Shown one piece after another: positions 1-59,331 of a stretch of 64,000 bases of DNA (position 1 is its first letter; every line of letters starts with the position of its first letter). A program made the position numbers and the translations under genes. Under the pieces are notes generated by a model that did no database searches, had not been told where the DNA came from, and saw only the letters and a program-made list of their open reading frames with translations. Origin of the DNA: Brevinematales bacterium (lineage in GTDB: Bacteria > Spirochaetota > Brevinematia > Brevinematales > Thermospiraceae); assembly GCA_026417555.1 (NCBI GenBank), contig JAOADA010000001.1:461245-525244 (forward strand), read 5' to 3'.

Positions 1-644
1 GACAAAGCGTTCGTTTCACTGTTTCTGCCTTTCAGGATACCTTTCAAGGATGGGTAGAAGACATTTGGTATCAACCCCAAACCTCCCAGGATGTGGTGTA
101 TTATCCTGTTTTGATTCGTGTGGATAATTCTTCTCAAAAACTTCTCCCAGGAATGTCCGCTTCTCTCGAGATTGTTGTTGCAGAAAAAAAGAATGTCCTC
201 CGTGTTCCCTCTCGGGCTCTCCGCCTCCAACCAAATTCTCAGATGCTTGCTACTCTCACCAACCAGAAAAAAGAGGGAGATTTCACTTTTTCTCCCACAA
301 ATAGGCAAAGAAAAAGAGAGCCTCTCACCTCCCCCCAGAGACAAGAAAATACAAGCCTCCTTTGGCTCATCAATACAAATACAGGAGAAATCTTGCCAGT
401 GCGGGTAAAAACAGGACTCTCCGACGGACAATACACGGAGATTCTCCCTCTTCAAGAAAAAGACAATCTTGAAGGGAAAACCATCATTGTCTCTCTTTCT
501 CCGACCAAAAAAACCTCTTCCTCGCAGATCTCCTCCCCTTCTTCCCAAAAGATCACCACCCCACAAACTGGAACTGTTCCTCGTGGGGGTGAAATACCGG
601 GTGGTATGCCTGGTGGCGGAAATACTCCTCCCCCTATGTTTTAA
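1..644 (+). CDS. Periplasmic adaptor (HlyD/MacA-like) of an ABC efflux system, C-terminal part
   Basis: The gene is cut by the window start; the reading frame is open from base 3 to a TAA at 642-644. The visible part has the beta-barrel and membrane-proximal domain of a membrane fusion protein, including a segment ending in LLPGMSASLEIVV, which is typical of the RND/MacA adaptor family. The C-terminal 45 residues are rich in Ser, Pro, Gly and Gln and look disordered. Such adaptors bridge an inner-membrane transporter to an outer-membrane channel. The next two genes are a MacB-type ATPase and permease, which fits a MacA role. The substrate cannot be read from the sequence. Confidence 0.85.
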   Translation, partial: QSVRFTVSAFQDTFQGWVEDIWYQPQTSQDVVYYPVLIRVDNSSQKLLPGMSASLEIVVAEKKNVLRVPSRALRLQPNSQMLATLTNQKKEGDFTFSPTNRQRKREPLTSPQRQENTSLLWLINTNTGEILPVRVKTGLSDGQYTEILPLQEKDNLEGKTIIVSLSPTKKTSSSQISSPSSQKITTPQTGTVPRGGEIPGGMPGGGNTPPPMF

Positions 645-657
645 CAAGGAGTATCGT

Positions 658-1377
658 ATGACAGAATTTTTCCCTTTGATTGAACTTTATCGAGTTTCTC
701 GTACCTATGAACTTGATCACTCTTCGGAAGCAGCCATCCCTGCTCTGAAGGATGTTTCTCTCACTATTTATGAGGGAGAGTTTATTGCCCTTACAGGACC
801 CTCTGGTTCAGGAAAAAGTACCCTCATGAATATTCTTGGTCTTCTGGATACCCCAGATAAGGGACAATACTCCTTTAGGGGCAAACCTATTCATCATATG
901 TCATCAGACGAACTTGCTGATCTCCGTAACAAAACCATGGGCTTTGTATTTCAAAACTTCCAACTTATTCCTCGAACAACTGCTTTAGAAAATGTAGAGG
1001 TTCCCCTCTTCTACCGCCATCCCCCTCTCCCACCTCGAGAAATACGAAACAAAGCCAAAACAATGTTGGAAATGGTAGGTTTGAAGCATCGTCTCCACCA
1101 TTATCCCAACCAGATGTCTGGAGGACAACAGCAAAGAGTAGCCATAGCCAGGGCTTTAGTAGGAAACCCTTCCCTCCTTTTGGCTGATGAACCTACCGGA
1201 AATCTCGATAGCCATACAAGCAAAGAAATTATGGAACTTCTCACAGAACTGAATACACAGGGAATTACTATTGTGATGGTTACCCACGAAGAAGATATTG
1301 CCGCCTATGCCAAACGGGTTATACGGATGCGAGATGGTGAGATTATTGATGACGGTGAGAGGAGGAATTCATTATGA
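658..1377 (+). CDS. MacB/LolD-type ABC transporter ATP-binding protein
   Basis: This 239-aa ATPase has Walker A GPSGSGKST, a Q-loop (FVFQNFQLI), signature MSGGQQQRVAIARAL, Walker B LLLADEPTGNLD and switch His in VTHEED, so it appears active. The start is ATG at 658 after AAGGAG; upstream in-frame codons would overlap the adaptor gene and lack a ribosome binding site. It ends in an ATGA overlap with the permease gene, implying translational coupling. With the adaptor and permease it forms a MacAB-like tripartite system, probably for efflux of a drug, peptide or lipid. Confidence 0.93.
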   Translation: MTEFFPLIELYRVSRTYELDHSSEAAIPALKDVSLTIYEGEFIALTGPSGSGKSTLMNILGLLDTPDKGQYSFRGKPIHHMSSDELADLRNKTMGFVFQNFQLIPRTTALENVEVPLFYRHPPLPPREIRNKAKTMLEMVGLKHRLHHYPNQMSGGQQQRVAIARALVGNPSLLLADEPTGNLDSHTSKEIMELLTELNTQGITIVMVTHEEDIAAYAKRVIRMRDGEIIDDGERRNSL

Positions 1378-2582
1378 TATATCACATGCTTCTTCTTGCT
1401 TTCCGTTCTTTTTCAAGAAACAAGGTAAGAACCATCCTTACGATGCTTGGTATTGTGATAGGTATTGCATCTGTTTCTGTTATGGTATCTTATGGTCAAG
1501 GTATGCAATACCAAATAGAAAAAAGAATCACCAGTATGGGTGTGAATCTTCTTACGATATTTCCTACTCGATACCGAAGTGGAGGAAATTCTTTGACTGG
1601 AGCCAACCGTCTCACCTACAGGGATTATGAAACATTGAAAAAAGAACTCGCCACCATCAATGGAATAACACCTCTCGCCAGAAGTTCCGTGAACGTAACC
1701 ACAAGAGAAGAAAGTTATTCTACTACTCTCTATGGAGTTTCTGCTGAATTCCCTCTTATTCGAAACTGGCAAATCAAATGGGGAGAATTTTTCTCAGAAG
1801 AAGAGGTCAAAAGCGCTCAGTTTGTCTGTGTGCTTGGGACTACGACAAGCCAAGAACTTTTTGGTGAAGAAATAGATCCAACTGGCCAATACCTCAAAAT
1901 CCAGAATACTCTTTTTCGAGTGATTGGTGTTCTTGCCAAAAAAGGATCAACCGGTCCACAGGACGAGGATGATGTTGTTCTTGTTCCTTATACCACTTAC
2001 AAAATGCGCATCAATCCTTCCCCTTATATCCCCCAAATCCTAGTCAGTTCCCTTTCTCAGGAAGCATTAGAATCCACCATAGAAGACATCACAACGATTC
2101 TCAGACGAACCCATAGGCTCAAGGAAAATGCCTCCAATGATTTTCGGATACTCAACCAGAGTGAGATGTTAGAAACAGCGCAAAGTGTCAGTACTTCTCT
2201 CACACTTTTTCTGGTGAGCATAGCAGCTATATCTCTACTGGTGGGAGGAATAGGGATTATGAATATCATGCTGGTTTCTGTCGTTGAAAGAACACGAGAA
2301 ATCGGTATTCGAATGGCTGTTGGGGCAAGACGACAGGATATTTTGTGGCAGTTTCTGACTGAATCTCTCGTCCTTTGTTTTCTTGGTGGCATCATAGGTT
2401 TGGGTATCGGTATCGTGACAAGTATTCTCTTAGAAAAGGTCGTGGGATGGGCTATTGCTTTTTCATGGCCTGTTTTTGTATTATCTTTTGGGGTAACGCT
2501 CGTTATAGGCATTGTTTTTGGATATTATCCTGCTAAAAAAGCTGCCCAACTTCACCCTATTGAGGCCCTAAGATATGAATAA
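1374..2582 (+). CDS. MacB-like FtsX-family ABC permease
   Basis: This 402-aa permease has one N-terminal membrane helix (about residues 20-42), a large periplasmic MacB_PCD-type domain (about 45-270), and three C-terminal helices (about 278-305, 325-350, 368-392). The FtsX core is visible around SVVERTREIGIRMAVGARR, and the C terminus PAKKAAQLHPIEALRYE is classic for the family. It overlaps the ATPase gene by 4 bases. It is the inner-membrane part of the MacAB-like system and is likely mechanotransmissive rather than a channel. The substrate is unknown. Confidence 0.93.
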   Translation: MIYHMLLLAFRSFSRNKVRTILTMLGIVIGIASVSVMVSYGQGMQYQIEKRITSMGVNLLTIFPTRYRSGGNSLTGANRLTYRDYETLKKELATINGITPLARSSVNVTTREESYSTTLYGVSAEFPLIRNWQIKWGEFFSEEEVKSAQFVCVLGTTTSQELFGEEIDPTGQYLKIQNTLFRVIGVLAKKGSTGPQDEDDVVLVPYTTYKMRINPSPYIPQILVSSLSQEALESTIEDITTILRRTHRLKENASNDFRILNQSEMLETAQSVSTSLTLFLVSIAAISLLVGGIGIMNIMLVSVVERTREIGIRMAVGARRQDILWQFLTESLVLCFLGGIIGLGIGIVTSILLEKVVGWAIAFSWPVFVLSFGVTLVIGIVFGYYPAKKAAQLHPIEALRYE

Positions 2583-11760: not shown

Positions 11761-12333
11761 ATGATTGAAAGAAAAAAAGATTGGGAAAAAGAAATTGCCT
11801 CCCAGCTTTCCGAAGAGAGGTGGCTCCATACCTTGGGGACTATTGAGATCGCCCTCCACCTTGCGAAAATTCATCGTCTCAATGAAGAAAAGGTGTATCT
11901 CGCCACTCTCCTTCATGATATCGGCAAAGCCTACCCTCTCGAAAAACAAAAGGAACTTGCCCTGGCCTACAATCTTCTCTCCCCAGAAGACCTCAGGGCA
12001 GAAGGCGTCGTTCACGCCAAGGTAAGTGCCTACCTCGCTCGAGAACGCTACCGTATTCAGGATGAAGACATCTTGTTTGTAATCGCTCATCATAGCACAG
12101 GACACCCTGATTACGGTCCCCTTGGATGGGTAGTCTATGTCTCAGACTATCTCGATCCCAATAGGAAACTGGTTCACCAGACTACCCTGCTCGCTACCTG
12201 TGAGGCAGATCTCAAAGAGGGGTGTCTTCAGGTACTCCTTGCCAAGCTTCAGTACCTTTTTGACAAGAGAAAGTACCTCCACTCCTACAGTGTAGATTTT
12301 TACCATAGCTTAATCCAGTCATTCCCCTTTTAG
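11761..12333 (+). CDS. yqeK: YqeK-family HD-domain hydrolase (likely Ap4A hydrolase)
   Basis: This 190-aa protein has an HD domain with HTLGTIEIA, LLHDIGKAYP and HAKVSAYLARERY, then AHHSTGHPDYGPLGWVVYVSDYLDPNR. This is the pattern of YqeK, a metal-dependent enzyme that splits Ap4A symmetrically to ADP. It starts 2 bases after the ankyrin gene, so they share a transcript. In many bacteria yqeK sits with nadD and rsfS; that context is absent here. The 3' end overlaps the convergent gene at 12330 by 4 bases. Confidence 0.85.
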   Translation: MIERKKDWEKEIASQLSEERWLHTLGTIEIALHLAKIHRLNEEKVYLATLLHDIGKAYPLEKQKELALAYNLLSPEDLRAEGVVHAKVSAYLARERYRIQDEDILFVIAHHSTGHPDYGPLGWVVYVSDYLDPNRKLVHQTTLLATCEADLKEGCLQVLLAKLQYLFDKRKYLHSYSVDFYHSLIQSFPF

Positions 12334-13070
12334 AAATAAAATCCTATCCACCCATGAAAGCGATCATACCAGTGATCAGAAAGAAAATAGGACGGCATAT
12401 TATACCCCACGCCTATATCTCCCCCTATTACGAGGTGATTCCATTTGATCATCACCCCTCCCATCACCATCGTATTCCAGCTCGTTTCACCTCCCATTAC
12501 TCCTATCCCAGTAAGAAATCGTGCCCTTACATAGAGACGTTCCTTAAGAAGAGTTTGATACCACCCTGTCCCAAGAAAAAGTTCAATCAGAGGCGTCTCC
12601 ACAGAGGCAATACCCATCATGTAATCAAACGACCATTTCCGAGGAAAAAGAAAATAGGAAACGTCAACGAAACCTGCACCACCACTTTGTTTTTCCTCCT
12701 GCTTCAAGGGGGAAAAAGAAGCAAACCCATACGACATCATCACTCTATCGTTGAAAGGGGTCAAAAGAAGGCTTTTCTCCCCTCCTTTTGCTACCATCAC
12801 TTTATTTGAGAGAAGTCCTTTCTCTTTTTTGTCCTCAAGGAGAATCTCATACTCCTCGTTGGCCACCAGTTCATAGCGATCCTCAAAACCCTGATCGTTC
12901 GTAATATGACCTAACACATTGCCTTGAATTTTTATCTTTCCCCCTACAGCAAAATAGGGGATCACCCGTACCACAAGGATACCACGCTCAGAGATATCTA
13001 CACCCAAGGCTTTGGCCACTTCTGCAGATACCTCATTTATCACATCAACAAGGCCATATTTTCGTATCAC
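12330..13070 (-). pseudogene. 3' part of a frameshifted secreted, beta-rich protein gene
   Basis: This 246-residue frame starts at a GTG without a ribosome binding site and without a signal peptide. Its C-terminal half looks like outer-membrane beta strands alternating with glycines and ends in GWIGFYF, with a terminal aromatic residue. It overlaps by 26 bases the end of the secreted 120-residue frame just upstream. Removing one A from the AAAA run near 13058 would join them in a single frame. So this is probably the second half of one gene of about 365 residues. I do not recognise the family. Confidence 0.6.
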
Positions 13071-13407
13071 TCAAGATATTCGTAGTATAGATTGGCTTAT
13101 TTTTTTCATTCCGAAGCACAAAGGCCAACCTCACATCCGGAGAACGGATGGGACCCTCAAACTCCATCGTAGTTTCAAGAGAAAGCCGACTTGCATTAGA
13201 TATATTCCCCCTTATGACATGCCAACCTGGCATCACTGCCAAACGAACATATATTCCCTCCTCAAGAAGAAAGGAAACAATCCCCTCTTGAGGGTAATCA
13301 TGGGAAGAAAGAGCTCGTGGCGTTTTGACAACAAGACTTCGGTTCCCTACAGCATAAGAAAAAACACCCGTAAAAAACAAAAGGAAAAAGCATGCTTTCC
13401 TTACCAT
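13045..13407 (-). pseudogene. 5' part of the same frameshifted secreted protein gene
   Basis: This 120-residue frame starts with a signal peptide (MVRKACFFLLFFTGVFSYAVG) after a good AGAGGAGAAGGG site and a clear promoter. It is beta-rich (GWHVIRGNISNASRLSLETT) and stops soon after KPIYTTNILSDTK. The frame one base on continues for 246 residues. Either this is a true frameshift, a sequencing error, or a short secreted protein with an overlapping cytoplasmic neighbour. I favour a frameshift because the downstream frame has an outer-membrane-like end but no export signal of its own. Confidence 0.6.
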
Positions 13408-13723: not shown

Positions 13724-14836
13724 TCAGTATTTGACCTCTACTGAAACAAGACACGAAAAGCCCCCTCGTTTCTCTGAAGTCATGGCACTGATATCCGTTT
13801 GGTACCGAAGCCACGTCAGGAGATTCACATTCTGATAGAGATTTCGTTGATAACCCAAAATCCACCACTGTCCCTTGTACCAGAGGTTTTGTTCTTCGTC
13901 GTCGAGATTTGCAACTACCGTAAGAAAGAAAGAATCTATCAAGGTAGGGATCATCATGAGATGAAGCGAGATATAGTGATGGGAAAGAAAGGGATAAACG
14001 GGGAGAGTAGAGTATTCAAAAAGGGAAAAATGAGTACGTTCAAGCGTGTGCGTCATGTATTCAACGCGAAATACCCATTTTCCCCAAAAAGAGTAATCCA
14101 TTCCCACCATGCCATGCCAGAAGCTCTTATTCGTATTCGTGGTAGAGTGATATACCCCTTCCCCATACCACGTTGGCCCAAAATCCCATTTCAAAGAGAG
14201 TCCTCCCATCCATGCTTCTTCTTTCCCACGATAGAAAAGAGCCCCTGTAACATACCACGACTCACCTCCCCCACCTGTTCTTACTCCAACCAGAGAATTG
14301 GTCCAAAAAGACCGTATAACCCCTATTCCTTCTGCGAAACCTACTTGCCCTAAGGGAAGTTTTATCCTCAGGGCATCAACTCCAAGACGAGAAAGATTCA
14401 CATCCCTAACATCCATTTGTGAAAAAAAATCCATCGGAGAAAAAATAAAACCTTCTCCCCATCTCACAAGTTGCCTTCCTAAGATCACATCCCCCCAGAA
14501 AGGCTTCACCATGACACTACACTTTCGTACATCCACCATCAGGAGGGTTTCTTCTCCTATGGACCACAACATACTTCCCTGGGCTCCATTGGTTATAACC
14601 CCAGAAAGGATCACAAGATCTCCAGAAACGTCAAAACGGGCATATTCTGTATCCCTATTGGCAACGGACACCCTCCATACCGTTTGCCCCCCAGACATCC
14701 ACTGGGACCATTGATCATTCGTTTCTCTGATGATCACCGTTCCCACACCGGAACGAAACCACCCCCCAACCAAAAGTCCATCTTCTGCCCACAAAAGTCC
14801 AACCCCCATTATCAACCAAAAGACACCCCATCGCAT
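13724..14836 (-). CDS. Putative outer-membrane beta-barrel protein of the Lol-like ABC operon
   Basis: This 370-aa protein has a signal peptide (MRWGVFWLIMGVGLLWA) and many alternating hydrophobic/polar strands with Trp, Tyr and Gly, ending SCLVSVEVKY with a terminal aromatic as in beta-barrel proteins. It starts 2 bases after the LolA-like gene and is the last gene of an operon with an ATPase and three FtsX permeases. I do not recognise a named family. Given its neighbours, it may be the outer-membrane receptor or exit point for the cargo of that transporter, but this is inference. Confidence 0.72.
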   Translation of the reverse strand: MRWGVFWLIMGVGLLWAEDGLLVGGWFRSGVGTVIIRETNDQWSQWMSGGQTVWRVSVANRDTEYARFDVSGDLVILSGVITNGAQGSMLWSIGEETLLMVDVRKCSVMVKPFWGDVILGRQLVRWGEGFIFSPMDFFSQMDVRDVNLSRLGVDALRIKLPLGQVGFAEGIGVIRSFWTNSLVGVRTGGGGESWYVTGALFYRGKEEAWMGGLSLKWDFGPTWYGEGVYHSTTNTNKSFWHGMVGMDYSFWGKWVFRVEYMTHTLERTHFSLFEYSTLPVYPFLSHHYISLHLMMIPTLIDSFFLTVVANLDDEEQNLWYKGQWWILGYQRNLYQNVNLLTWLRYQTDISAMTSEKRGGFSCLVSVEVKY

Positions 14837-14838
14837 AC

Positions 14839-15567
14839 CTATCGCTCCAGATATCGACGTGTAAAATAATTATCACTCACGGGAACATCAAAAGAAGCCT
14901 CTTCTATAACAACCACGGTTTTCGTATTTTTTTTGAGCTGGTCTGACACTGTTGTGAGAGTCGAAAACCACCTCCCCCCTACCTCACGAATCTCTGAAGA
15001 TTCCTGGACTTTAAGAAGTTTTCCCGAAGGAGCATAGCGTTCCTCCCTGATAGGCACAAAGGTTGTCTTGTGCACCCACATTTTTCTTCTGTAGTAGGTT
15101 ACCTCCTTTACTTTTGCTGTAAGTTCTACCACATAACACTCATACTGAGCATACTTCTCCTCCCCAACGAGTTGGATGGTGTATTTTTCATAGAGGTCAT
15201 CGGCTTCCAGCGCATCCTCATAGGACACATCACTTCCCATCATTCCCTGTTTAAGCATATGTCCAGAGATGAGAAAAGTATTATTCTCCTCTCCATCATA
15301 TACCCACATTTGTCTGTTGAGTTTGAGATAACGGGTATTTCTATCCTCTTTGTTGAGAAACTCTACGTAAGCGTTCTTTTTCTTTATCCAGGACTTCATC
15401 TTTTTGATACGCACTGGCTGATTTGGAAGATAAATTTCCATCCGCATAGTGATAATCGCCGAATCAAAATTCACCCGTTTGTCAACCTCTCGAAGAATTT
15501 CTTCTCCCGTCAAACCAAAATTCAGAGTGACCAACAACAAAAATACACCCAAAACACTGTATCTCAT
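14839..15567 (-). CDS. LolA-like outer-membrane lipoprotein-sorting protein
   Basis: This 242-aa protein has a signal peptide (MRYSVLGVFLLLVTLNFGLTG) and the layout of the outer-membrane lipoprotein-sorting family: TGEEILREVDKR, MRMEIYLP, KKMKSWIKKKNAYVEFLNK, RQMWVYDGEENNTFLIS and YYRRKMWVHKTTFVPIREE. These fold as an open half-barrel that shields acyl chains in the periplasm. It is 15 bases after the third permease and directly before the putative beta-barrel protein. It probably ferries a lipid or lipoprotein released by the ABC complex to the outer membrane. Confidence 0.88.
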   Translation of the reverse strand: MRYSVLGVFLLLVTLNFGLTGEEILREVDKRVNFDSAIITMRMEIYLPNQPVRIKKMKSWIKKKNAYVEFLNKEDRNTRYLKLNRQMWVYDGEENNTFLISGHMLKQGMMGSDVSYEDALEADDLYEKYTIQLVGEEKYAQYECYVVELTAKVKEVTYYRRKMWVHKTTFVPIREERYAPSGKLLKVQESSEIREVGGRWFSTLTTVSDQLKKNTKTVVVIEEASFDVPVSDNYFTRRYLER

Positions 15568-15582
15568 GACATCCTCCTTATG

Positions 15583-16851
15583 CTATACACTTCGGATAGC
15601 ATCTACAGGCTTCATTCGGGCAGCCAAACGTGAGGGGAAAAGAGAAACCAATGTCGCTACCACAAGACCCAGAATAAGCGATCCTCCTACACTCTTCGGG
15701 GTAATTTTCCATCGAATGACTGAATCCAGAGGAAGGTTCATATTGGCAAGAGAAGAAGAAAAATCTACTCCCCACACACTCAGGGGCCAACTAATCAAGA
15801 CTCCCAGCAAGACCCCCATACCACTCCCAATAAGCCCCAAGACAAGCCCCTCATAAAGGAAAAGAATGAGTACTTCTCCAGATTTGAGTCCCATGGCTTT
15901 GAGAATACCAATCTCCCTTCGCCTTTCCAAAACAATCATCATCATAATATTTGTGATGATGATCATCCCGAGAAAGGTCACCACAAAATAGATGAGGTTA
16001 TAAATGGGCAAGATCTGTTCCATCATACTCACAATACCACCTGCCCTGTTCCAAGGGATGGCCACAATATCCTGCCATTGATTTTCTGAAGTTGCCCACG
16101 ATTGGATTTCTTTTGCCAAAGCTGGGGCTCGTGTATAGTCCTTGAGAAACAGGAGAACCTCTTGCACTCCACCACCAGTTCGAAGAATATCCATGGCATC
16201 CTTTATATCCATCTGAAAGATATTTTCATCCATCATATTGAGCCCCGTCTGGAAAATTCCTACTACTTGAAACCGTGGAATGCGTATGCCATAATCAGAT
16301 CCCTGGAGCATCACCGAGAAGGTATCCCCCACACCAATCTTGAGAATATCAGCCATTTTTTTGCCCACAATCACTTCTCGATATTTATGCCCTTGTTTTT
16401 CTATTACCTGACCAGAAAGATAGCGCCCAGCAACAATAGCCTTTTCAAGAAGTAAAAGATCTTTCTCCACCCTGTAATCCCCCCCAAACCCAAAGGCTGC
16501 TTTGTTGTTTCCCTCATACTGGAGAAGCACAGGAAAACGTATCCGAAACACGACCAACTCAATCTCTTTTGACCATTGTGGATGGGAAAGTATCTTCTCT
16601 CTCAACCTCTCTGGTTCTGAGACAAGATACTGGACAGGAAAATAGCGAATATTCTCTGCATACGACCGGGCCGTGATACGAATATGACCGGAATCGTTCT
16701 TGGTACCATTGCGAATCATATTGTCAATCATTCCTTCAACCAACCCCTGCAAAACAACCACAAGGGCAAGCGCAAGGGTTACGGAGAGCACCGCAAGAAA
16801 AGAACGACGTGTATTCCTTCTGATGTTACGAAGCGCCATTTTAAATAGCAT
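15583..16851 (-). CDS. FtsX-family ABC permease (third of three, LolC/E-like)
   Basis: This 422-aa protein has an N-terminal membrane helix, a large periplasmic domain (about residues 45-285) and three C-terminal helices. The core reads VLERRREIGILKAMG, and the C terminus is PSRLAARMKPVDAIRSV. The start is ATG 16851 after AAAGGAGG; the frame extends upstream to 16881 but that overlaps the previous gene. It is clearly more divergent than the two permeases before it, which are close paralogues. It may be the partner that forms a heterodimer, like LolC with LolE. Confidence 0.92.
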   Translation of the reverse strand: MLFKMALRNIRRNTRRSFLAVLSVTLALALVVVLQGLVEGMIDNMIRNGTKNDSGHIRITARSYAENIRYFPVQYLVSEPERLREKILSHPQWSKEIELVVFRIRFPVLLQYEGNNKAAFGFGGDYRVEKDLLLLEKAIVAGRYLSGQVIEKQGHKYREVIVGKKMADILKIGVGDTFSVMLQGSDYGIRIPRFQVVGIFQTGLNMMDENIFQMDIKDAMDILRTGGGVQEVLLFLKDYTRAPALAKEIQSWATSENQWQDIVAIPWNRAGGIVSMMEQILPIYNLIYFVVTFLGMIIITNIMMMIVLERRREIGILKAMGLKSGEVLILFLYEGLVLGLIGSGMGVLLGVLISWPLSVWGVDFSSSLANMNLPLDSVIRWKITPKSVGGSLILGLVVATLVSLFPSRLAARMKPVDAIRSV

Positions 16852-16862
16852 ATTTTCCTCCT

Positions 16863-18128
16863 TTAGACATACTTGAGACAATCCGTTACCTGGAGCTTGC
16901 CAGCCTGGCGGGCTGGAATATACGCTGATACAAGTGCTGTGAGAAAAGCAAAAGTAAAGGCCACCACATACGCCTCAAGGTGCCATTCTCCATAAAATAT
17001 CCCCCATACAGGAAATCCAAAATCACTGCCTTTGACTGCTTGACCACCCAAAAAGCCTTCAATATTATATCCACCATACACCAACCACACATTCACCAAG
17101 GTCCCCATAACAAGCCCCAGAATACCACCCAAGACACCAAGAAGAGCCCCCTCCATGAGGAAAACCCTTTGAATCTGTTTTGGCGTAAATCCCATAGCCC
17201 GCATCACCCCAATCTCTTTCATCCGTTCATAAATTGCCATCAGGATAGTATTCACGATTCCGACTCCGGCAATAACCAAAAGAAGAAATGTCATCAAGAC
17301 AATAGTTCCTTTCTTTTGCTGCAAAAGAGCCATCATGTCCGCATACTGATCCACAAAGCTCTTCACCCGATACTGAGGAAGCTTCTCTCCCAATTCTTGT
17401 GCCACTTTCTGAACCTTTCTCTGGTAAGCCGCAATAGATTCTCCTTTTGGCCAATTTATCCTTACGTGCATAGTGATCCACTCCCCTTCCATGTCAAGGA
17501 GAACCTTTCCCCCCTGAGGAGAAAGAAACACTCCACTCTCATCAACCTGTGGACTTGTTGTCTTGAGAATACCCACCACGGTAAAATCCCAGGCATTGGC
17601 TGTTTCATATTTGGTTTGAGCTATAAGAGTAATGGTATCTCCAACCTCTACACCAAGATCACGGGCAAGATCCCGTCCTATCATCACCTCATTCTCATTA
17701 TTCCCAAGAAAACGGCCTTTGATCACTTTTTTGTCAAGATCAAAAGCCCTGGTATCTCCTATAGGATCAATGACATATCCCACCACATGGAAAGATTTCT
17801 CTCCAACAACAAGCTCTGTGAGAAAGGGAACGCGAAACGAAACCCCCTCTACCTCTGGATGGGATGTTACCAAGGAAAAAAGACTCTCCACCCGTGAAAG
17901 AGGATAACGAAGGGAATACGCCTTCTCATTACCCGCATATTCTGGAGAGGTTATGGTAAGAGAACCATCTGTATAGGAAACCATATTTTCTACCATCATA
18001 CGATCAATTCCTGTAAAGAGAGAATCCCCAAAAATATACAACATCAATCCAAACCCCATGGTAAGAATAGTGAGAAACGTCCGTCGTTTATGTCTGAGAA
18101 TGTTTCTTACCGCTATACGAAAAAGCAT
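16863..18128 (-). CDS. FtsX-family ABC permease (second of three)
   Basis: This 421-aa protein has the same four-helix layout with a periplasmic MacB_PCD-like domain. The core is YERMKEIGVMRAMGFTP and the end is YIPARQAGKLQVTDCLKYV. It closely resembles the 18144-19427 product throughout, including YGEKSFH-like, KGRFLGNNENEVMIGRDLARDLGV and GSDFGFPVWGI segments, so the two arose by tandem duplication. It lies 15 bases after its paralogue and shares one ATPase gene with it. Confidence 0.92.
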   Translation of the reverse strand: MLFRIAVRNILRHKRRTFLTILTMGFGLMLYIFGDSLFTGIDRMMVENMVSYTDGSLTITSPEYAGNEKAYSLRYPLSRVESLFSLVTSHPEVEGVSFRVPFLTELVVGEKSFHVVGYVIDPIGDTRAFDLDKKVIKGRFLGNNENEVMIGRDLARDLGVEVGDTITLIAQTKYETANAWDFTVVGILKTTSPQVDESGVFLSPQGGKVLLDMEGEWITMHVRINWPKGESIAAYQRKVQKVAQELGEKLPQYRVKSFVDQYADMMALLQQKKGTIVLMTFLLLVIAGVGIVNTILMAIYERMKEIGVMRAMGFTPKQIQRVFLMEGALLGVLGGILGLVMGTLVNVWLVYGGYNIEGFLGGQAVKGSDFGFPVWGIFYGEWHLEAYVVAFTFAFLTALVSAYIPARQAGKLQVTDCLKYV

Positions 18129-18143
18129 ATACTCCTCCTTTCT

Positions 18144-19427
18144 TTATACAAAACGGAGACACTCCGTCACTGAGAGCCGGGTAGCATGACGAGAAGGAAG
18201 AAATGCTGATAATGTCGCCATACCCACCGCAAAGATAAAGACAACAAGAAACGCCAGTGGATTCCAATCCCCATAGATCACTCCCCACACCGGGAGCCCA
18301 AAGTCACTCCCCGAGACACCACCAAAACCCAGCGACTCCATATCGTAGCCAATATATACCTGATAGGCATTAAGAAGAATCCCTCCCACCATTCCCACAA
18401 GAGCCCCTATCCCCCCTACGAAGGACCCCTCCAAAGTCAACATAAGTCGGATCTCAAAGGGAGAAAACCCCAACGCGCGCATCACCCCGATCTCCTTCAT
18501 TCGTTCATGGATACTCATGAGAATAGTATTTATAATCCCTACGGCAGAGATCAAGAAGATGACACCCAGCATGATGTACATGAATCCCTCATCTGTTTTC
18601 ATGAGTCCGAAAATCTCCCTATATTTCTCAGCAAAGGAGAGAATCCGGTATCCCGTAAATTGAGAAGCAATTTCACGCGAGTACTTCATAGCTCGTCTGG
18701 TATAAGACTCAACACTTTCACCCTTTGGCCATCTCACCCTGAGATGCGCAGAGAGTGCATCACTCTTTTCCAGAGCCAAAAGAGGGGAGGCTGTTTCATA
18801 AGAAACATAGAAACAGGACTCATCAAGGGTAGGATGAGAGGTTCTATAGATCCCTTTCACAAGAAGACCAAGGGCATTCAATGTCCCGTGTTTTGTCTGA
18901 ACTATCACCATTACCTCATCCCCAACATCGACACCAAGCCCCCGAGCGAGATCTTTTCCCAGAAGGACTTCATTGACTTCGCCCTCAAGATATTTTCCTT
19001 TCACCACAGCCCGACTCAGATCAAATACCTCTTTATCTCTTTGATGATCAATAACATATCCCATCGCGTGAAAGGACTTCTCCCCATAGAGTATTTCTCC
19101 CACAAAAGGAACACGAAAAGTCACTCCCTCTACCCAAGGAAAAGAAGAAAGACGATCTCTCAGTTCCTCAGGCTTAAAGAAGAAATACCGAAGAGGAAAT
19201 GCCTGCTCATGGTCGGCATACTCCTGTGTCGTAAAAAATATTGTCCCATCCGCATAACGAACCAGGTTTTCTGCCATCTGACGATGCATTCCCCTATAGA
19301 TTCCATCTGCCCAGAGAAAAACCATCACCCCTACTGCAATAGTGACCATGGTCAGAAATGTCCGCCGGCGATGACGAAAAAGGTTTCGAAAACCAAGAAG
19401 AAAAAGTATATTACCTTCTCTCATCAC
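18144..19427 (-). CDS. FtsX-family ABC permease (first of three)
   Basis: This 427-aa protein has an N-terminal helix (about residues 22-42), a periplasmic domain (about 45-285) and three C-terminal helices. The core is IHERMKEIGVMRALGFSP, with the C terminus PSRHATRLSVTECLRFV. Start codons GTG 19427 and ATG 19424 are adjacent, with GGGAGG 7 or 10 bases upstream. It overlaps the ATPase gene by 17 bases. It forms, with its paralogue downstream, the likely permease dimer of the transporter. Confidence 0.92.
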   Translation of the reverse strand: MMREGNILFLLGFRNLFRHRRRTFLTMVTIAVGVMVFLWADGIYRGMHRQMAENLVRYADGTIFFTTQEYADHEQAFPLRYFFFKPEELRDRLSSFPWVEGVTFRVPFVGEILYGEKSFHAMGYVIDHQRDKEVFDLSRAVVKGKYLEGEVNEVLLGKDLARGLGVDVGDEVMVIVQTKHGTLNALGLLVKGIYRTSHPTLDESCFYVSYETASPLLALEKSDALSAHLRVRWPKGESVESYTRRAMKYSREIASQFTGYRILSFAEKYREIFGLMKTDEGFMYIMLGVIFLISAVGIINTILMSIHERMKEIGVMRALGFSPFEIRLMLTLEGSFVGGIGALVGMVGGILLNAYQVYIGYDMESLGFGGVSGSDFGLPVWGVIYGDWNPLAFLVVFIFAVGMATLSAFLPSRHATRLSVTECLRFV

Positions 19428-20100
19428 GAGCTATCCTCCCATCCTGAAGGATAATGATACGCCTCGCATGTTTCTCTACCCGGGGATCATGGGTAGAAAA
19501 CACAAAAGTTGTCCCTTCCACTTCGTTCATATGGCGCATGATTTCAATTACCTCTTCTGCCGTTTTGGAATCCAGGTTTGCCGTAGGTTCATCTGCTAAC
19601 ACCACAAGGGGATGCTTCACAAGAGCCCTGGCAATGGCCACTCGCTGTTCCTGACCTCCAGAAAGCTCTCGAGGATAACGAGACTCCATCCCTTTTAACC
19701 CCACACGTTCAATCAGTTCCATGGCTCGTTTTGTTCTCTCCTCCTGAGAAAGCTTCCTATCGATAACCATAGGAAGCTCCACATTCTCGAGCACCGTCAA
19801 TACCGGGATAAGGTTATACGACTGAAAGATAAACCCAATATTGTTTTTGCGATATTCCGAGAGTTCGTTTTCTTTGAGATGGTGCAGCGGGGTCCCATCA
19901 TAAATCACCTCCCCTGCCGTGGGAACATCCAAACACCCAATGATATTGAGAAGCGTCGTTTTTCCACTCCCAGAAGGTCCCATAATCGAGATAAACTCCC
20001 CCCTCTCTATGATAAGGTCAATCCCGCGAAGCGCCTCAACATCAATCTCCCCTTTCTTGTACACCTTCCGGAGTCCTTTCATCTCTAAACAGACGGCCAT
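19411..20100 (-). CDS. LolD/MacB-type ABC ATPase
   Basis: This 229-aa protein has Walker A GPSGSGKTT, Q-loop FIFQSYNLIPV, signature LSGGQEQRVAIARAL, Walker B VVLADEPTANLD and switch His in FSTHDPRVEKHA, so it should be active. It is the first gene of a six-gene operon behind a strong promoter and is the only ATPase for three permeases. LolD-type ATPases energise release of lipoproteins or lipids from the inner membrane. Cargo specificity cannot be read here. Confidence 0.94.
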   Translation of the reverse strand: MAVCLEMKGLRKVYKKGEIDVEALRGIDLIIERGEFISIMGPSGSGKTTLLNIIGCLDVPTAGEVIYDGTPLHHLKENELSEYRKNNIGFIFQSYNLIPVLTVLENVELPMVIDRKLSQEERTKRAMELIERVGLKGMESRYPRELSGGQEQRVAIARALVKHPLVVLADEPTANLDSKTAEEVIEIMRHMNEVEGTTFVFSTHDPRVEKHARRIIILQDGRIARDERR

Positions 20101-20138: not shown

Positions 20139-20167
20139 ATTATAGACCATTTTCAAAAAAAAGTCAA
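20139..20167 (-). promoter_or_regulatory. Strong sigma70 promoter of the Lol-like ABC operon
   Basis: TTGACT (20167-20162), 17-bp spacer, TATAAT (20144-20139) on the minus strand. It drives 20100-13724, six genes. Confidence 0.92.
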
Positions 20168-20299: not shown

Positions 20300-20328
20300 T
20301 TGACTTTTTCTCATTTTTGCCACATGAT
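20300..20328 (+). promoter_or_regulatory. Probable sigma70 promoter of the carboxylesterase gene
   Basis: TTGACT (20300-20305), 17-bp spacer, CATGAT (20323-20328). The expected transcript start near 20335 leaves only about 9 bases before the GTG at 20344. Confidence 0.6.
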
Positions 20329-20343
20329 AGAAAGGGAAAGAGA

Positions 20344-22032
20344 GTGAAAACATTCACATCTTTTCTCGTCATGAGTGCCATACTTTTTGGCTGTCAAACG
20401 GTACAAAAGCCCGTGATTGAGAGTAATGGTCTCTCGAGGTGGGGAAATTCGCCCCTTGTGAAAATATCCTCTGGTTGGATTCAAGGGAGAGAAGAAGACT
20501 CGTGTTTTAGTTTCAAAGGCATCCCGTATGCCTCTCCCCCTGTGAAACATCTCCGATGGAAAGCCCCTCGTCCCCATCCTGGATGGGAGGGCATCTATTA
20601 CGCCAATACCTTCCGTGGCACCTCCCCTCAATTTCTTCCTTTTTTGGGATGGGTGATAGGGGATGAGGATATGCTCTACCTCAACATCTGGAGACCCAAA
20701 GGCGGGGAAACCAATCTCCCTGTCTATGTCTGGATCCACGGTGGAGGAAACTCCATTGGAAGCGCTCATTACGTTCCAGATTACTATGGTGCTCATCTCG
20801 CCAAGAAGGGAAATCTTGTTTTTGTTTCCCTTAATTATCGTCTTGGGCCCTTTGGATGGCTGAGTCACCCTCTTCTTCAGGATCAGACCAATGACCAGGA
20901 CGATTCGGGAAACTACGGTACCCTCGATATTATCGCTGCCCTCACCTGGATTCAATCAAATATCATTGCCTTCGGAGGAGATCCTTCTCGAGTAACCATA
21001 GCAGGAGAATCGGCAGGGGGGCTCAATGTTCTCTCCCTTTTGATCTCTCCCCAGGCTAAGGGTCTTTTCCATCGTGCTGTGATCCAAAGTGGATACACTG
21101 CCATTCTCTCTCGAGAAGAGGCATATGCCTATGCTACCTCTCTTTTTGCGAGGATTCTCGTAAAAAAAAGACAAGTACAGTCACTCGAAGAGGCAAAACA
21201 TATGCTCACTTCATTTCCTCGGGAGAGTATTCGCCGTGTTCTCTACAACACCTCTGCCAAGGAAATCCTTTCCTGTCTCCAGGGGGGGAGATTGGGAATG
21301 ACAGGAGAGGCTCATCTTATTGCTGATGGGAGGGTTCTCCCTCGTGAAGGATTTGCAGCTCTGGAGAAAGGGAATTTTTCCCCTGTTCCTGTGATTATAG
21401 GAAATAACAAAGAGGAAACGAAACTTTTTCTTTCCTTTTCAAGAAAAGACTGGGAATCACCTACGTATCAAGCCCTGGGTCTTTTAGGGGGAATGCGTTG
21501 GAAAGCCCTTTACGTAGACGCAATAGCAGACATCCTTTCTCAGCACCACATCCCTGTCTATGTTTATCGTTTCGATTGGGGATCCCCTGATACTAACGGG
21601 TATAGTCCCCTTGGCCCCAAAGAAGGGAAACGTCTCGGGGCTTTCCATACCTTAGAGATTCCCTTCTGGCTTGGGAACACAACCATCCAAGGATTTTTCT
21701 TAACAGGGAGGGTGTTTACGCCATCCAATGAAAAAGGACGAAAAGCCCTTTCTTCAGCCATGCAAGCTTACTTGATCGCTTTTGTCCATACAGGAAGCCC
21801 TACCCCAGAAACTCCCCTCCCTCCTTGGCCTCAATGGAAAGAAAAACAAGAAAAGCTTGGTCTTTTCTTTGACGCCACAGAAACAGAACTTCGACTCAGT
21901 TATCAGACATTTCCTTTCACACTCTCTCTGATTGAAGAGTATATAGAGAGGGTTTTCCCCCCTTCTGAAAGACAGCATATCCGACAATCTCTTGGTCTCA
22001 CAAACAGTCCTTCATCGACCTCTTCCCCATGA
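20344..22032 (+). CDS. Type-B carboxylesterase, lipoprotein
   Basis: This 562-aa alpha/beta hydrolase of the carboxylesterase/lipase type B family has KGIPYASPP, EDMLYLNIWRP, the oxyanion WIHGGGN, the nucleophile elbow GESAGG, a Glu near IGNNKEE and His in GAFHTLEIPFW. The start GTG 20344 gives a lipoprotein signal with lipobox ILFGC; further upstream codons add charged residues before the signal. It likely hydrolyses esters at the cell envelope. The 3' end overlaps the convergent FAH-family gene by 35 bases. Confidence 0.9.
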   Translation: MKTFTSFLVMSAILFGCQTVQKPVIESNGLSRWGNSPLVKISSGWIQGREEDSCFSFKGIPYASPPVKHLRWKAPRPHPGWEGIYYANTFRGTSPQFLPFLGWVIGDEDMLYLNIWRPKGGETNLPVYVWIHGGGNSIGSAHYVPDYYGAHLAKKGNLVFVSLNYRLGPFGWLSHPLLQDQTNDQDDSGNYGTLDIIAALTWIQSNIIAFGGDPSRVTIAGESAGGLNVLSLLISPQAKGLFHRAVIQSGYTAILSREEAYAYATSLFARILVKKRQVQSLEEAKHMLTSFPRESIRRVLYNTSAKEILSCLQGGRLGMTGEAHLIADGRVLPREGFAALEKGNFSPVPVIIGNNKEETKLFLSFSRKDWESPTYQALGLLGGMRWKALYVDAIADILSQHHIPVYVYRFDWGSPDTNGYSPLGPKEGKRLGAFHTLEIPFWLGNTTIQGFFLTGRVFTPSNEKGRKALSSAMQAYLIAFVHTGSPTPETPLPPWPQWKEKQEKLGLFFDATETELRLSYQTFPFTLSLIEEYIERVFPPSERQHIRQSLGLTNSPSSTSSP

Positions 22033-56826: not shown

Positions 56827-59331
56827 TTACTCCACCTCTTGCAAGAATCCAATATTGTACAGCTCTGATTTTTGAAGATCTGTAGGCTCATGGGTTCCTT
56901 TCTCCCGTCCATAAATACCCACTCCTACAACCTCTCCATCCCTGATCACAGGGGTGATAAAAAGTTCCTCTAAATTTTGAAGTTCTCCATCCTTAAACCA
57001 CTGCTTGAGATAAGAAGCCTTCTCAAGATTCTGTTGGATATCAAGGGATTTATGGTGCGCAAGCACTTTTTTGTACAATGGATCATTGGTAGAGAGATTC
57101 AAAGCTACCTGAAATCCGTCCTGCAAGACATTCTCAAATTTTTCTCCTCGTTTCTCAAGGACACAAACACGGTTCATACCCAACGCACTTTTTGCAATAT
57201 CATGGGCTGCCTTTGCATAACTTGGCACATCATGAATAGTACTGATACGTTTTGGTGGCTCACTAAGAAGTTTGGCCAGATCCTCATGAAGTTCTTCACC
57301 AAACATCATCACCTTTTCTTGCGGGTTTTGAGCTTCCTTGGGCATCTCTGGAGAAGTTTGCATCCCTGTCTCTTCTACAGGAATAGCTGAGAGTTCTTCC
57401 ATATTCAAAGCAATAACCTCATCTTCCACTGTTTCTTCTTTCTCTGGGACAGAAATTTCTTCAAGAAGCGTATCTGCTACCTTCATTTCTTCAGGAAGTT
57501 CACTTTCAAGAAGAGTTTCTCCCGATTCTTGCTGTGGAGAGGCCTCCTCGAGAGAAATCTCTGGCATTTCTATAGTATCGAGATGTATCTCCTCCAATGA
57601 TACGTCCTCAAGAGAGGGCTCTTTTTCTCCTTCTTCGGAAGAGACTTCCTCTGATGCGTATCTCTCTTTTCCCACTTCCTCTCCCCCCATCTCTGCCATA
57701 CCCTCAGCATCCCCTAAGGGCAAAACCTCGGTTTCCACTTCCAGGGAGGGGGATTCCTCCGTTATCACTCCAAGATCCTCAATATCTTCAGTTGTTCCTT
57801 TTTCCTGGCCAAAGGAAGGTGTTTCAAATTCAAGAACCTCTTTTTCTTCAGGGAGTTCCGGCTCAAGTTTCATAAACTCTGGTTCAAGCACAAGCTCTTC
57901 TTTTGGAGAGGGAGCTTCTTCCTCTGCAGTCGCAAAAGATGGCTCAAGAAACATTTCCTCTCCTTCAGGTGAGACGGTGTCTTGCTTTTCTGTCTCCATG
58001 ACCTCATCAAGAAGTTTGTCTTGTTCTGCAAAAAGCCGCGTCGCCTCATCGGGTTGAAACGCTCCTGAACTTAATCCACTTAACGAGGGTGGTTCCATAA
58101 CCGTGATCTCTTCTGGGAAGGATCCTTCTTCCTTGGAAGAGAACTCTTTTTCCATCTCGTCAAAAGAAGGCTCTGCAAAAGAGGATTCTCCAAGGGAGGC
58201 TTCTCCACTACCACTCTCCGCGGGGGCATACTTTTCTATCCCAGAAAAAGCAGCTTCTTCTGAAAAAGAGGCTTCTTGAGAAAGAGATTCTGGTTTTTCC
58301 TTCTGTTCTTCTTTTCCTCCAAAGGCAAAGGAAGGAGAACGCGTGAGATCCTCAATCTCTTCGGACATCAGCATCTCTTCGATACCCTTCTTTGCCTCTT
58401 CACTGGAAAGAGTTTCTCCTTCTTCGATATCTTCTACCAGGTTCTTGAGATCATCACGGGGATGGTGACGAAAGGTTAGCGGTTGTTTATACAATTTCTC
58501 CTCTTGAAGTAGCCGGAAAAAGGCATACAAAATCAGAAACAAAAGTACAAAAGCAAAGATAATGATCCCGATCACAAGACTCGACACGTAGTTTTCATAA
58601 CGGGAAAAATAGACCACCTGAATACCATCCACGTCCTTCATCCCCCCTATTGTCTTTTTCCCCCTTGAGAGAACCGCTGGATCAACACTCGCATATTCAA
58701 CTATCTTTGCTGCCTCTTGTTGTCCTTTTTGACGCTTACTCACAAGGATAGTTTTCCCCCACGGAATCATGAGTCCATACGTAGGGGAAGAAAATCGAGC
58801 CGCATCATAATACATCACTACATGGAAATTTTTCTCCTCTTGTTGCAACACTTGAGCTACAAGAAACTCATTGGTACTCACAAAACGAAGAAAGGGCTGT
58901 CTATAGGTCTCCTGATAGACCATCGCTTGCGTCAACAGATCTGGAACAAAACGATTCACAAGTGCCTCACCAGGCTTCGTCGAATAGAGTACAATCCCTG
59001 TAGGATCAAGGAGTTGGATTTTTTTGAGAAAAGAAAGCTTGCCCAAAATGGCCTCAAGCTGGGTCGCATAAGGAGTAGTATCTTCCCCACTATAAAGAGC
59101 AACAATCATATCCCTCACCAATTTATCTGATACTACCCCGTTGACTTCCTGATATACCTTGGCCCTCTCATTGGTAAACCATCTGACATATTTTTCCACT
59201 TGAGTAGACACATGCCGGTCATAATCCCGCCCAAAATTCCCCACTTGGTTTCTCGCCATGAAGACAACAGCGAACAAAAGCCCAACAACAAGAAAAAAAG
59301 AAATAATGAGAACAACTTTTTTGGCCTGCAT
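56827..59331 (-). CDS. Large membrane protein with acidic linker and C-terminal GAF-like domain
   Basis: This 834-aa protein has two membrane helices (about residues 4-25 and 250-275) that bracket an extracytoplasmic Cache-like sensor (about 30-245; LLDPTGIVLYST). A very acidic Glu/Ser/Pro-rich linker (about 290-690) follows, then a GAF-like domain (about 705-834; NRVCVLEKRG, FITPVIRDGEVVGVGIYGRE). There is no kinase, cyclase or methyl-accepting domain. It may be a sensor whose output passes to the adjacent ArsR regulator. Its start is ATG 59331 behind AGGAAGAGG. Confidence 0.78.
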   Translation of the reverse strand: MQAKKVVLIISFFLVVGLLFAVVFMARNQVGNFGRDYDRHVSTQVEKYVRWFTNERAKVYQEVNGVVSDKLVRDMIVALYSGEDTTPYATQLEAILGKLSFLKKIQLLDPTGIVLYSTKPGEALVNRFVPDLLTQAMVYQETYRQPFLRFVSTNEFLVAQVLQQEEKNFHVVMYYDAARFSSPTYGLMIPWGKTILVSKRQKGQQEAAKIVEYASVDPAVLSRGKKTIGGMKDVDGIQVVYFSRYENYVSSLVIGIIIFAFVLLFLILYAFFRLLQEEKLYKQPLTFRHHPRDDLKNLVEDIEEGETLSSEEAKKGIEEMLMSEEIEDLTRSPSFAFGGKEEQKEKPESLSQEASFSEEAAFSGIEKYAPAESGSGEASLGESSFAEPSFDEMEKEFSSKEEGSFPEEITVMEPPSLSGLSSGAFQPDEATRLFAEQDKLLDEVMETEKQDTVSPEGEEMFLEPSFATAEEEAPSPKEELVLEPEFMKLEPELPEEKEVLEFETPSFGQEKGTTEDIEDLGVITEESPSLEVETEVLPLGDAEGMAEMGGEEVGKERYASEEVSSEEGEKEPSLEDVSLEEIHLDTIEMPEISLEEASPQQESGETLLESELPEEMKVADTLLEEISVPEKEETVEDEVIALNMEELSAIPVEETGMQTSPEMPKEAQNPQEKVMMFGEELHEDLAKLLSEPPKRISTIHDVPSYAKAAHDIAKSALGMNRVCVLEKRGEKFENVLQDGFQVALNLSTNDPLYKKVLAHHKSLDIQQNLEKASYLKQWFKDGELQNLEELFITPVIRDGEVVGVGIYGREKGTHEPTDLQKSELYNIGFLQEVE

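Follow-up and report, generated by a model that had tools for sequence, protein, structure and literature searches.

What would a bacterium carry between its two membranes with one LolD-like ATPase, three permeases, a LolA-like carrier and an outer-membrane protein, and are these parts built to work together? This question is raised by an operon in a stretch of 64,000 nucleotides from a Brevinematales bacterium (contig JAOADA010000001.1; hereafter the window). The initial annotation had proposed a dedicated inner-to-outer-membrane route for lipids or lipoproteins with its own carrier and acceptor.

Layout of the operon

The operon consists of six tightly spaced genes on the minus strand (13724-20100), in the order ATPase, permeases P1, P2 and P3, PF17131 LolA-like carrier and outer-membrane barrel protein. 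All six ORFs were recovered, with intergenic gaps or overlaps of at most 20 bp, and together with the family assignments and the barrel model they bear out the gene inventory first read from the sequence. The features are as follows:

20139..20167, minus strand: promoter-like site, TTGACT-17-TATAAT (11/12 consensus matches; a consensus match only)
19411..20100, minus strand: ABC ATPase of the LolD/MacB class (PF00005, ABC_tran, 7.6e-35; TIGR02211, 236.8 bits)
18144..19427, minus strand: permease P1, subunit A copy 1 (FtsX and MacB_PCD domains; permease tree)
16863..18128, minus strand: permease P2, subunit A copy 2 (FtsX and MacB_PCD domains; permease tree)
15583..16851, minus strand: permease P3, subunit B (FtsX and MacB_PCD domains; permease tree; start as in relatives)
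14839..15567, minus strand: LolA-like periplasmic carrier of the LolA3 type (PF17131; secreted, without a lipobox)
13724..14836, minus strand: outer-membrane beta barrel of about 18 strands (structure model, PDB fold matches, PF06980-matching relatives)
12330..13407, minus strand: gene following the barrel gene, reading frame disrupted in the window (ORFs 13045-13407 and 12330-13070)

The promoter-like site ranks first among 18 such sites in the region and lies 39 bp upstream of the ATPase start. In the ATPase, aligned to LolD, the Walker A, signature and Walker B motifs are all intact, and its identity to same-genus counterparts is 90-92%. The P3 ORF extends to a TTG at 16881, but translation most likely begins at the ATG at 16851, which fits the starts of its relatives.

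The two downstream ORFs are 66% and 64% identical to consecutive parts of a 379-aa protein in a relative (G002), where the intact homologue directly follows the barrel gene. This gene has no Pfam match and no homologue at the other compared loci, including that of G001, and is not clearly part of the system. Searches of Rfam and PHROGs returned no match.

A duplicated permease subunit

Two close tandem paralogues and a more divergent third permease had been noted at the outset, and pairwise identities agree with that description (P1-P2 45%, P1-P3 27%, P2-P3 25%). The permease tree separates, with strong support, an A subunit from a B subunit; P1 and P2 represent a duplicated A and are sisters within the genus (support 100/99), while P3 is the B subunit. 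A separate new architecture with three permeases was therefore rejected, since the tree indicates the A:B heterodimer type with A duplicated. Moreover, subunit A has undergone strongly supported independent duplications in at least four lineages, whereas no duplication of B appears among the lineages sampled in the tree. This repeated one-sided duplication suggests that P1:P3 and P2:P3 may form alternative transporters. The copies of A are also diverging faster, as periplasmic domains of congeners share 46-76% identity for P1 and P2 but 79-86% for P3.

Among solved structures, P3 and P2 are closest in sequence to LolF/LolE, the nearest for P3 being LolF 9w37 (1.6e-21). In LolC a hairpin, the Hook, recruits LolA. 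The hairpin at this position is about five residues shorter than that of LolC in both A and B, and it is shortened in spirochaete LolF as well.

The carrier, the barrel and their engines

The carrier belongs to the PF17131 (LolA3) type, as its profile match lies far above the curated cut-off (1.7e-49; 168.4 bits against 30) and its model (pLDDT 92.4) has as best PDB fold match LolA3 of Porphyromonas gingivalis (9tp6, TM 0.80), to which sequence relationship is also detectable (2.3e-15). For 14839-15567 no match to classical LolA (PF03548) is listed at E<=1. LolA3 of P. gingivalis and Flavobacterium johnsoniae has been studied as an orphan LolA paralogue, and the available portions of those reports assign it no ABC or MMPL engine and no barrel (PMC13103446, PMC11885536).

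The protein encoded at 13724-14836 begins with a signal-peptide-like segment and ends in an aromatic residue (VSVEVKY). Its predicted structure is a beta barrel of 18 strands (pLDDT 86.6, pTM 0.83) and not a soluble fold, in line with the outer-membrane character initially suspected. The closest solved folds are MOMP, AlgE and OccD porins; the best 50 of 254 PDB fold matches at E<=0.001 are porins, AlgE, Occ and similar proteins, and since no Omp85 occurs among these 50, an Omp85-type barrel as in Borrelia was rejected. A sequence search of the PDB with the barrel profile gave no match. The protein itself does not match DUF1302 (PF06980), which is matched by 4/26 of its aligned relatives (best 8.9e-14); judged from this single alignment, it is a divergent relative of DUF1302 by homology through intermediates, not a member of the family.

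Both same-genus genomes retain the order ATPase-P1-P2-P3-carrier-barrel, and one genome of the same order has ATPase-A-B-carrier-barrel; the genes stay together instead of being scattered. The gene pattern is not confined to the window operon: carrier, barrel and engine recur together across Spirochaetota and several other phyla, the engine being either an MMPL/RND protein or an ABC system made up of an ATPase and a pair of FtsX permeases. The MMPL modules resemble AmeABCD of Castellaniella and the DUF1302-DUF1329-RND sets of Pseudomonas, which likewise join a DUF1302 barrel and a LolA-superfamily periplasmic protein to an inner-membrane engine (PMC6394551, PMC10866462). These proteobacterial sets differ in their RND engine and larger DUF1329 protein, and the ABC-driven form found in the window is not described in either paper. 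Of the published proposals, these sets, the orphan LolA3 and the Borrelia BBJ23-29 cluster come nearest to the window operon.

Carrier and barrel are paired beyond chance, because the whole genome has just two PF17131 genes and just two barrels of this type, and these form the same two neighbour pairs. This pairing and a same-strand count of 103:1 are cleaner tests of clustering than the figure of 104/115, which exaggerates clustering because its loci all have the carrier at their centre. Among the loci with full flanks in a named set that was drawn independently, 23/26 have both barrel and FtsX genes; greedy calling lost the carrier gene to longer antisense ORFs at 15/80 named loci, making these counts lower bounds. 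Each of the two trees, that of the carrier and that of the barrel, shows only a single switch of engine type, implying that carrier and barrel were inherited together with their engine.

PF17131 is present in 145/197 spirochaete genomes and absent from Borreliaceae and some Brachyspira-like genomes; the carrier and barrel profiles found no match in three Borreliaceae-like genomes (G069, G089 and G093). A Treponema pallidum-like genome has a carrier with an MMPL engine and no recognisable barrel, and hence the barrel is either not always needed or has been replaced there. TetR regulators flank many copies (10/10 tested); no TetR gene is found at the window operon itself.

Cargo, direction and a proposed route

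The operon is distinct from the housekeeping Lol pathway, as the genome has elsewhere its own LolF-LolD pair (C30) and its own classical LolA (PF03548; G000:C11:105826). The idea that the operon is the only LolCDE of the organism was accordingly rejected, and so was FtsX as the identity of the C30 permease, which the lolCE search and NCBIfam identify as LolF. The window permeases score 125.5, 125.2 and 106.2 bits against the lolCE equivalog; its cut-off of 362 bits is harsh for spirochaetes, since the genome's own LolF (250 bits) falls below it too, yet P1-P3 lie far below even this LolF. For the LolD equivalog TIGR02211 (cut-off 307.75) the genome's own LolD is likewise below the cut-off, at 247.6 bits, which makes the shortfall of the window ATPase weak evidence. 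The operon shares the mechanical ABC class and the carrier fold with LolCDE and LolDF-LolA, but differs from them in its A and B permeases with A duplicated, its PF17131 instead of PF03548 carrier and the barrel within the operon.

We consider it somewhat probable (about 0.58) that the operon encodes a self-contained route, served by a LolA3-type carrier, which exports lipid or lipid-like cargo from the inner to the outer membrane. The conserved operon and both folds agree with the part of the original proposal that gave a dedicated route its own carrier and acceptor, while a lipid or some other hydrophobic compound has become a more likely cargo than a lipoprotein.

The operon might instead be a second Lol pathway reserved for certain lipoproteins: the ABC transporter would extract these, the LolA-like protein would transport them, and the barrel, taking over the role of LolB, would insert them or flip them to the cell surface. 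This seems unlikely, though it fits the LolA-like carrier fold and the sequence proximity of P3 and P2 to LolF/LolE. Recognisable LolB is confined to beta- and gamma-Proteobacteria, and spirochaetes must therefore complete lipoprotein delivery by other means (PMC11784454). A similar export idea has been published for Borrelia BBJ23-29, where a MacB/LolE-class ABC system, a LolA-like protein and an outer-membrane barrel are also clustered (Nixon et al. 2026, PMC13078400); that cluster, however, has an Omp85-type barrel, two TPR proteins and one permease, unlike the porin-like, DUF1302-related barrel and the A and B permeases described here. Against lipoprotein cargo speak the separate LolF-LolD and LolA, the low lolCE scores, the occurrence of the same carrier-barrel pair with engines of the MMPL lipid-pump type, and the very weak binding of LolB by P. 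gingivalis LolA3 (PMC13103446) and the lack of a gliding or secretion phenotype in an F. johnsoniae lolA3 deletion (PMC11885536).

Less probable still is MacB-like efflux of a hydrophobic small molecule or peptide that is toxic, with the LolA-like protein as shuttle, the barrel as exit porin and TetR-type sensors regulating it where present. The frequent TetR neighbours and the MacB_PCD domains would suit such a role, and the RND protein AmeD with its DUF1302/DUF1329 partners has been described as a monoterpene efflux system (PMC6394551). The LolA3 fold has a hydrophobic groove (PMC13103446), which counts against this reading. The FtsX/MacB permease class is shared with MacAB-TolC, but the operon contains no MacA or TolC homologue, has a separate ATPase gene and a LolA-like carrier, and lacks a TetR gene. 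P1-P3 reach only 24-35 bits with the PRK10535 profile, the operon holds no fused NBD-TMD MacB, and a MacB-type permease with its ATPase sits apart at window positions 469-2582.

All known type VII (FtsX/MacB/Lol) ABC systems work outwards, and no conserved solute-binding or catabolic gene stands out beside the ABC modules, which makes improbable an inward route where the barrel imports a hydrophobic compound that the carrier delivers to the inner membrane for handling by the ABC or MMPL engine, even if the Pseudomonas and Castellaniella DUF1302/DUF1329 pairs, found through growth on hydrophobic substrates (P. putida genes required on Tween 20, PMC10866462; AmeB required on monoterpenes, PMC6394551), could also mean uptake.

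For the lipid export route, we infer complex formation, direction of transport, hand-off partners and class of cargo as follows. A dimer of the ATPase would power an A:B heterodimer of permeases belonging to type VII, the mechanical class of LolCDE and MacB, and this pair would lift the cargo out of the periplasmic leaflet. The cargo would then be handed to the LolA3-type carrier, probably via the slowly evolving P3 side, and the carrier would traverse the periplasm and unload at the 18-strand barrel. With A present in duplicate, P1:P3 and P2:P3 may act as alternative transporters that use the same B subunit, carrier and barrel.

More tentatively, and with odds slightly against it, PF17131/LolA3 carriers may define another, widespread class of lipid exporters that span the envelope, composed of a carrier and a dedicated porin-like barrel with interchangeable engines (ABC A:B heterodimer or MMPL pump), in whose ABC form repeated duplication of A could have given rise to several different cargo specificities served by the same B, carrier and exit barrel. 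If correct, this would place a lipid route made of carrier and barrel alongside Lpt, Mla/AsmA and Lol, and would bear on the passage of lipids and lipoproteins to the outer membrane and the surface in LPS-less diderms such as spirochaetes. It would also name candidate partners for LolA3-type carriers, namely a permease pair, an ATPase and a barrel in a set conserved across phyla, and give the three permeases a testable meaning as two A subunits sharing one B.

Organization of the operon and its relatives

Six minus-strand genes, with gaps or overlaps of at most 20 bp between neighbours, make up the operon at window positions 13724-20100. Open reading frames, Pfam families and permease identities confirm the gene set described in the initial annotation.

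Genes of the operon
19411-20100, minus: ABC ATPase (Pfam ABC_tran)
18144-19427, minus: permease P1 (Pfam FtsX and MacB_PCD)
16863-18128, minus: permease P2 (Pfam FtsX and MacB_PCD)
15583-16851, minus: permease P3 (Pfam FtsX and MacB_PCD)
14839-15567, minus: LolA-like protein, the carrier (Pfam LolA_like PF17131, 1.7e-49)
13724-14836, minus: outer-membrane protein, the barrel (no Pfam match above cut-off)

P1 and P2 are 45% identical, while P3 shares 25-27% with either, and the ATPase gene is preceded, at 39 bp, by a strong promoter-like site. After the barrel comes a gene (12330-13407, minus) that is broken into two overlapping frames, 13045-13407 and 12330-13070, owing to a frameshift in the strain or to an error of assembly; in the same-genus genome G002 the corresponding 379-aa ORF is intact. 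A divergent carboxylesterase gene (20317-22032, plus) is retained as neighbour in G002 (73% identical) and not in its congener G001. Further away, an 834-aa ORF (56827-59331, minus) has no Pfam match at 1e-5.

The operon is not the housekeeping Lol system: this 2.04-Mb genome (98% complete) has a separate LolF-LolD pair (L173; 250 bits to the lolCE model, 248 to LolD) and a classical LolA (PF03548), and the window permeases score 106-125 bits to lolCE. Another FtsX-class system lies nearby (469-2582, plus), with a MacB-type permease (PRK10535, 271 bits for the permease alone) and a separate ATPase.

As for gene order in other spirochaetes, the set is kept together: G001 and G002 have the identical six-gene order, a same-order genome has ATPase-A-B-carrier-barrel (A and B being two permease subunit clades), and in other class members the carrier adjoins the barrel with permeases nearby. 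PF17131 occurs in 145 of 197 spirochaete genomes, and an iterated barrel profile on 50 loci found 48 barrel genes, 38 directly adjoining the carrier. Among 80 independently fetched named loci, 65 had a callable carrier, 58 of these with FtsX genes and 51 with a barrel; because ABC-type carriers served as seeds of the scan, selection favours the FtsX count and not the barrel count. Well-flanked loci had both in 23 of 26 cases. Records with both are named, among others, Spirochaetes, Fibrobacterota, Cloacimonadota, Bacteroidota, Calditrichota, Acidobacteria, Aminicenantes, WOR-1, WOR-3, Coatesbacteria and KSB1, some of these names being MAG labels that are possibly wrong.

An unbiased test of the association is the window's whole genome, where two PF17131 genes and two barrels of this family form two neighbour pairs. 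The second pair belongs to a parallel operon (L027:5316-11430; contig C11, ~446.6-452.7 kb, before the window) of ATPase (57% identical), two permeases of unusual length (506 and 570 aa) on very long branches, carrier and barrel (441 aa). Locus L068:6802-14874 (G131) combines four permeases, forming two A-B pairs, with one visible ATPase, a carrier and a barrel.

Carrier, barrel and engine

The carrier model (pLDDT 92.4) best matches the crystal structure of P. gingivalis LolA3 (9tp6, TM 0.80); DUF1329/LolA-superfamily structures give TM 0.75-0.83, and classical LolA stands further down at ~0.45. The motif ISGHxLxxGMMGSDxSYED is invariant in an alignment of 13 ABC-linked carriers. LolA3 is described as an orphan paralogue with very weak LolB binding, whose deletion in F. 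johnsoniae left both gliding and amylase secretion unaffected (PMC13103446, PMC11885536).

The beta-barrel-like character first proposed for the 13724-14836 product is borne out as a model: AlphaFold2 (26 relatives; pLDDT 86.6, pTM 0.83) predicts a signal helix followed by ~18 strands. Foldseek returned 254 PDB matches at E<=0.001, of which the best 50 are porins, Occ channels, MOMP, AlgE and similar, with no Omp85 fold among those 50. PF06980 is matched by four of 26 aligned relatives (best 8.9e-14), and the family is a divergent relative of DUF1302. Conservation is highest in GRQ-LVRWGEG-FIFSPMD (residues ~120-136; G120 and G127 invariant in the alignment), a segment preceded by one strand and modelled with little regular structure; it might, as a guess, form a plug or constriction.

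Many loci have, in place of the ABC part, a single protein of ~770-1000 residues with ~10-14 predicted membrane segments. Three such engines tested belong to the MMPL family, the lipid-pump branch of the RND superfamily, and show sterol-sensing/Patched similarity. On the carrier tree the engine type, ABC or MMPL, switches only a single time, and likewise on the barrel tree, indicating that carrier and barrel were passed on together with their engine. Many ABC and MMPL modules have TetR-family regulators close by (10 of 10 tested); the window operon showed none. In the T. pallidum-like genome G057 a single pair of MMPL protein and PF17131 carrier is retained (L049:9360-12821), and a genome-wide search there found no barrel of this family.

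Comparable published sets combine DUF1302, DUF1329 and RND proteins, as AmeABCD in Castellaniella (PMC6394551) and in Pseudomonas putida, where a DUF1302-DUF1329 complex is predicted (PMC10866462). MMPL operons of Porphyromonas and Prevotella that also encode a lipoprotein-sorting protein and TetR respond to iron limitation with strong induction (PMC10434189). The nearest published proposal concerns Borrelia BBJ23-29, comprising ABC, LolA-like, Omp85-type barrel and TPR proteins (PMC13078400); the window's barrel is of another class, and carrier and barrel profiles found no relatives in three Borreliaceae-like genomes.

Permease subunits and the proposed export route

A tree of 86 permeases places most of them in two clades that both extend across phyla: A, with the first permease (support 96/92), and B, with the second (92/87). 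Within A, P1 and P2 group as sisters (100/99); P3 belongs to B. The presence of three permeases, noted initially, is most readily explained by duplication of subunit A. Separate, strongly supported A duplications occurred in the window genus, class family f5, same-order family f2 and G031, with no B duplication seen in this tree; a real bias is suggestive only (4/4; one-sided p = 0.06 if A and B are equally prone). Between congeners, the periplasmic domains of P1/P2 diverge faster (46-76% identity) than that of P3 (79-86%). Compared with other A subunits, their closest relatives L056 and L059 aside, both A subunits of G031 (L160:4152-6808) carry 8 extra residues in a periplasmic hairpin at the LolC Hook position.

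The early proposal of a dedicated inner-to-outer-membrane lipid or lipoprotein export route with its own carrier and acceptor seems right in outline, but lipoprotein is now the less likely cargo. Confidence in lipid export is 0.58, the individual transport steps being putative. In the simplest model, one B subunit would dock the shared carrier and take one of two alternative A subunits as its partner, and these A subunits may differ in cargo handling.
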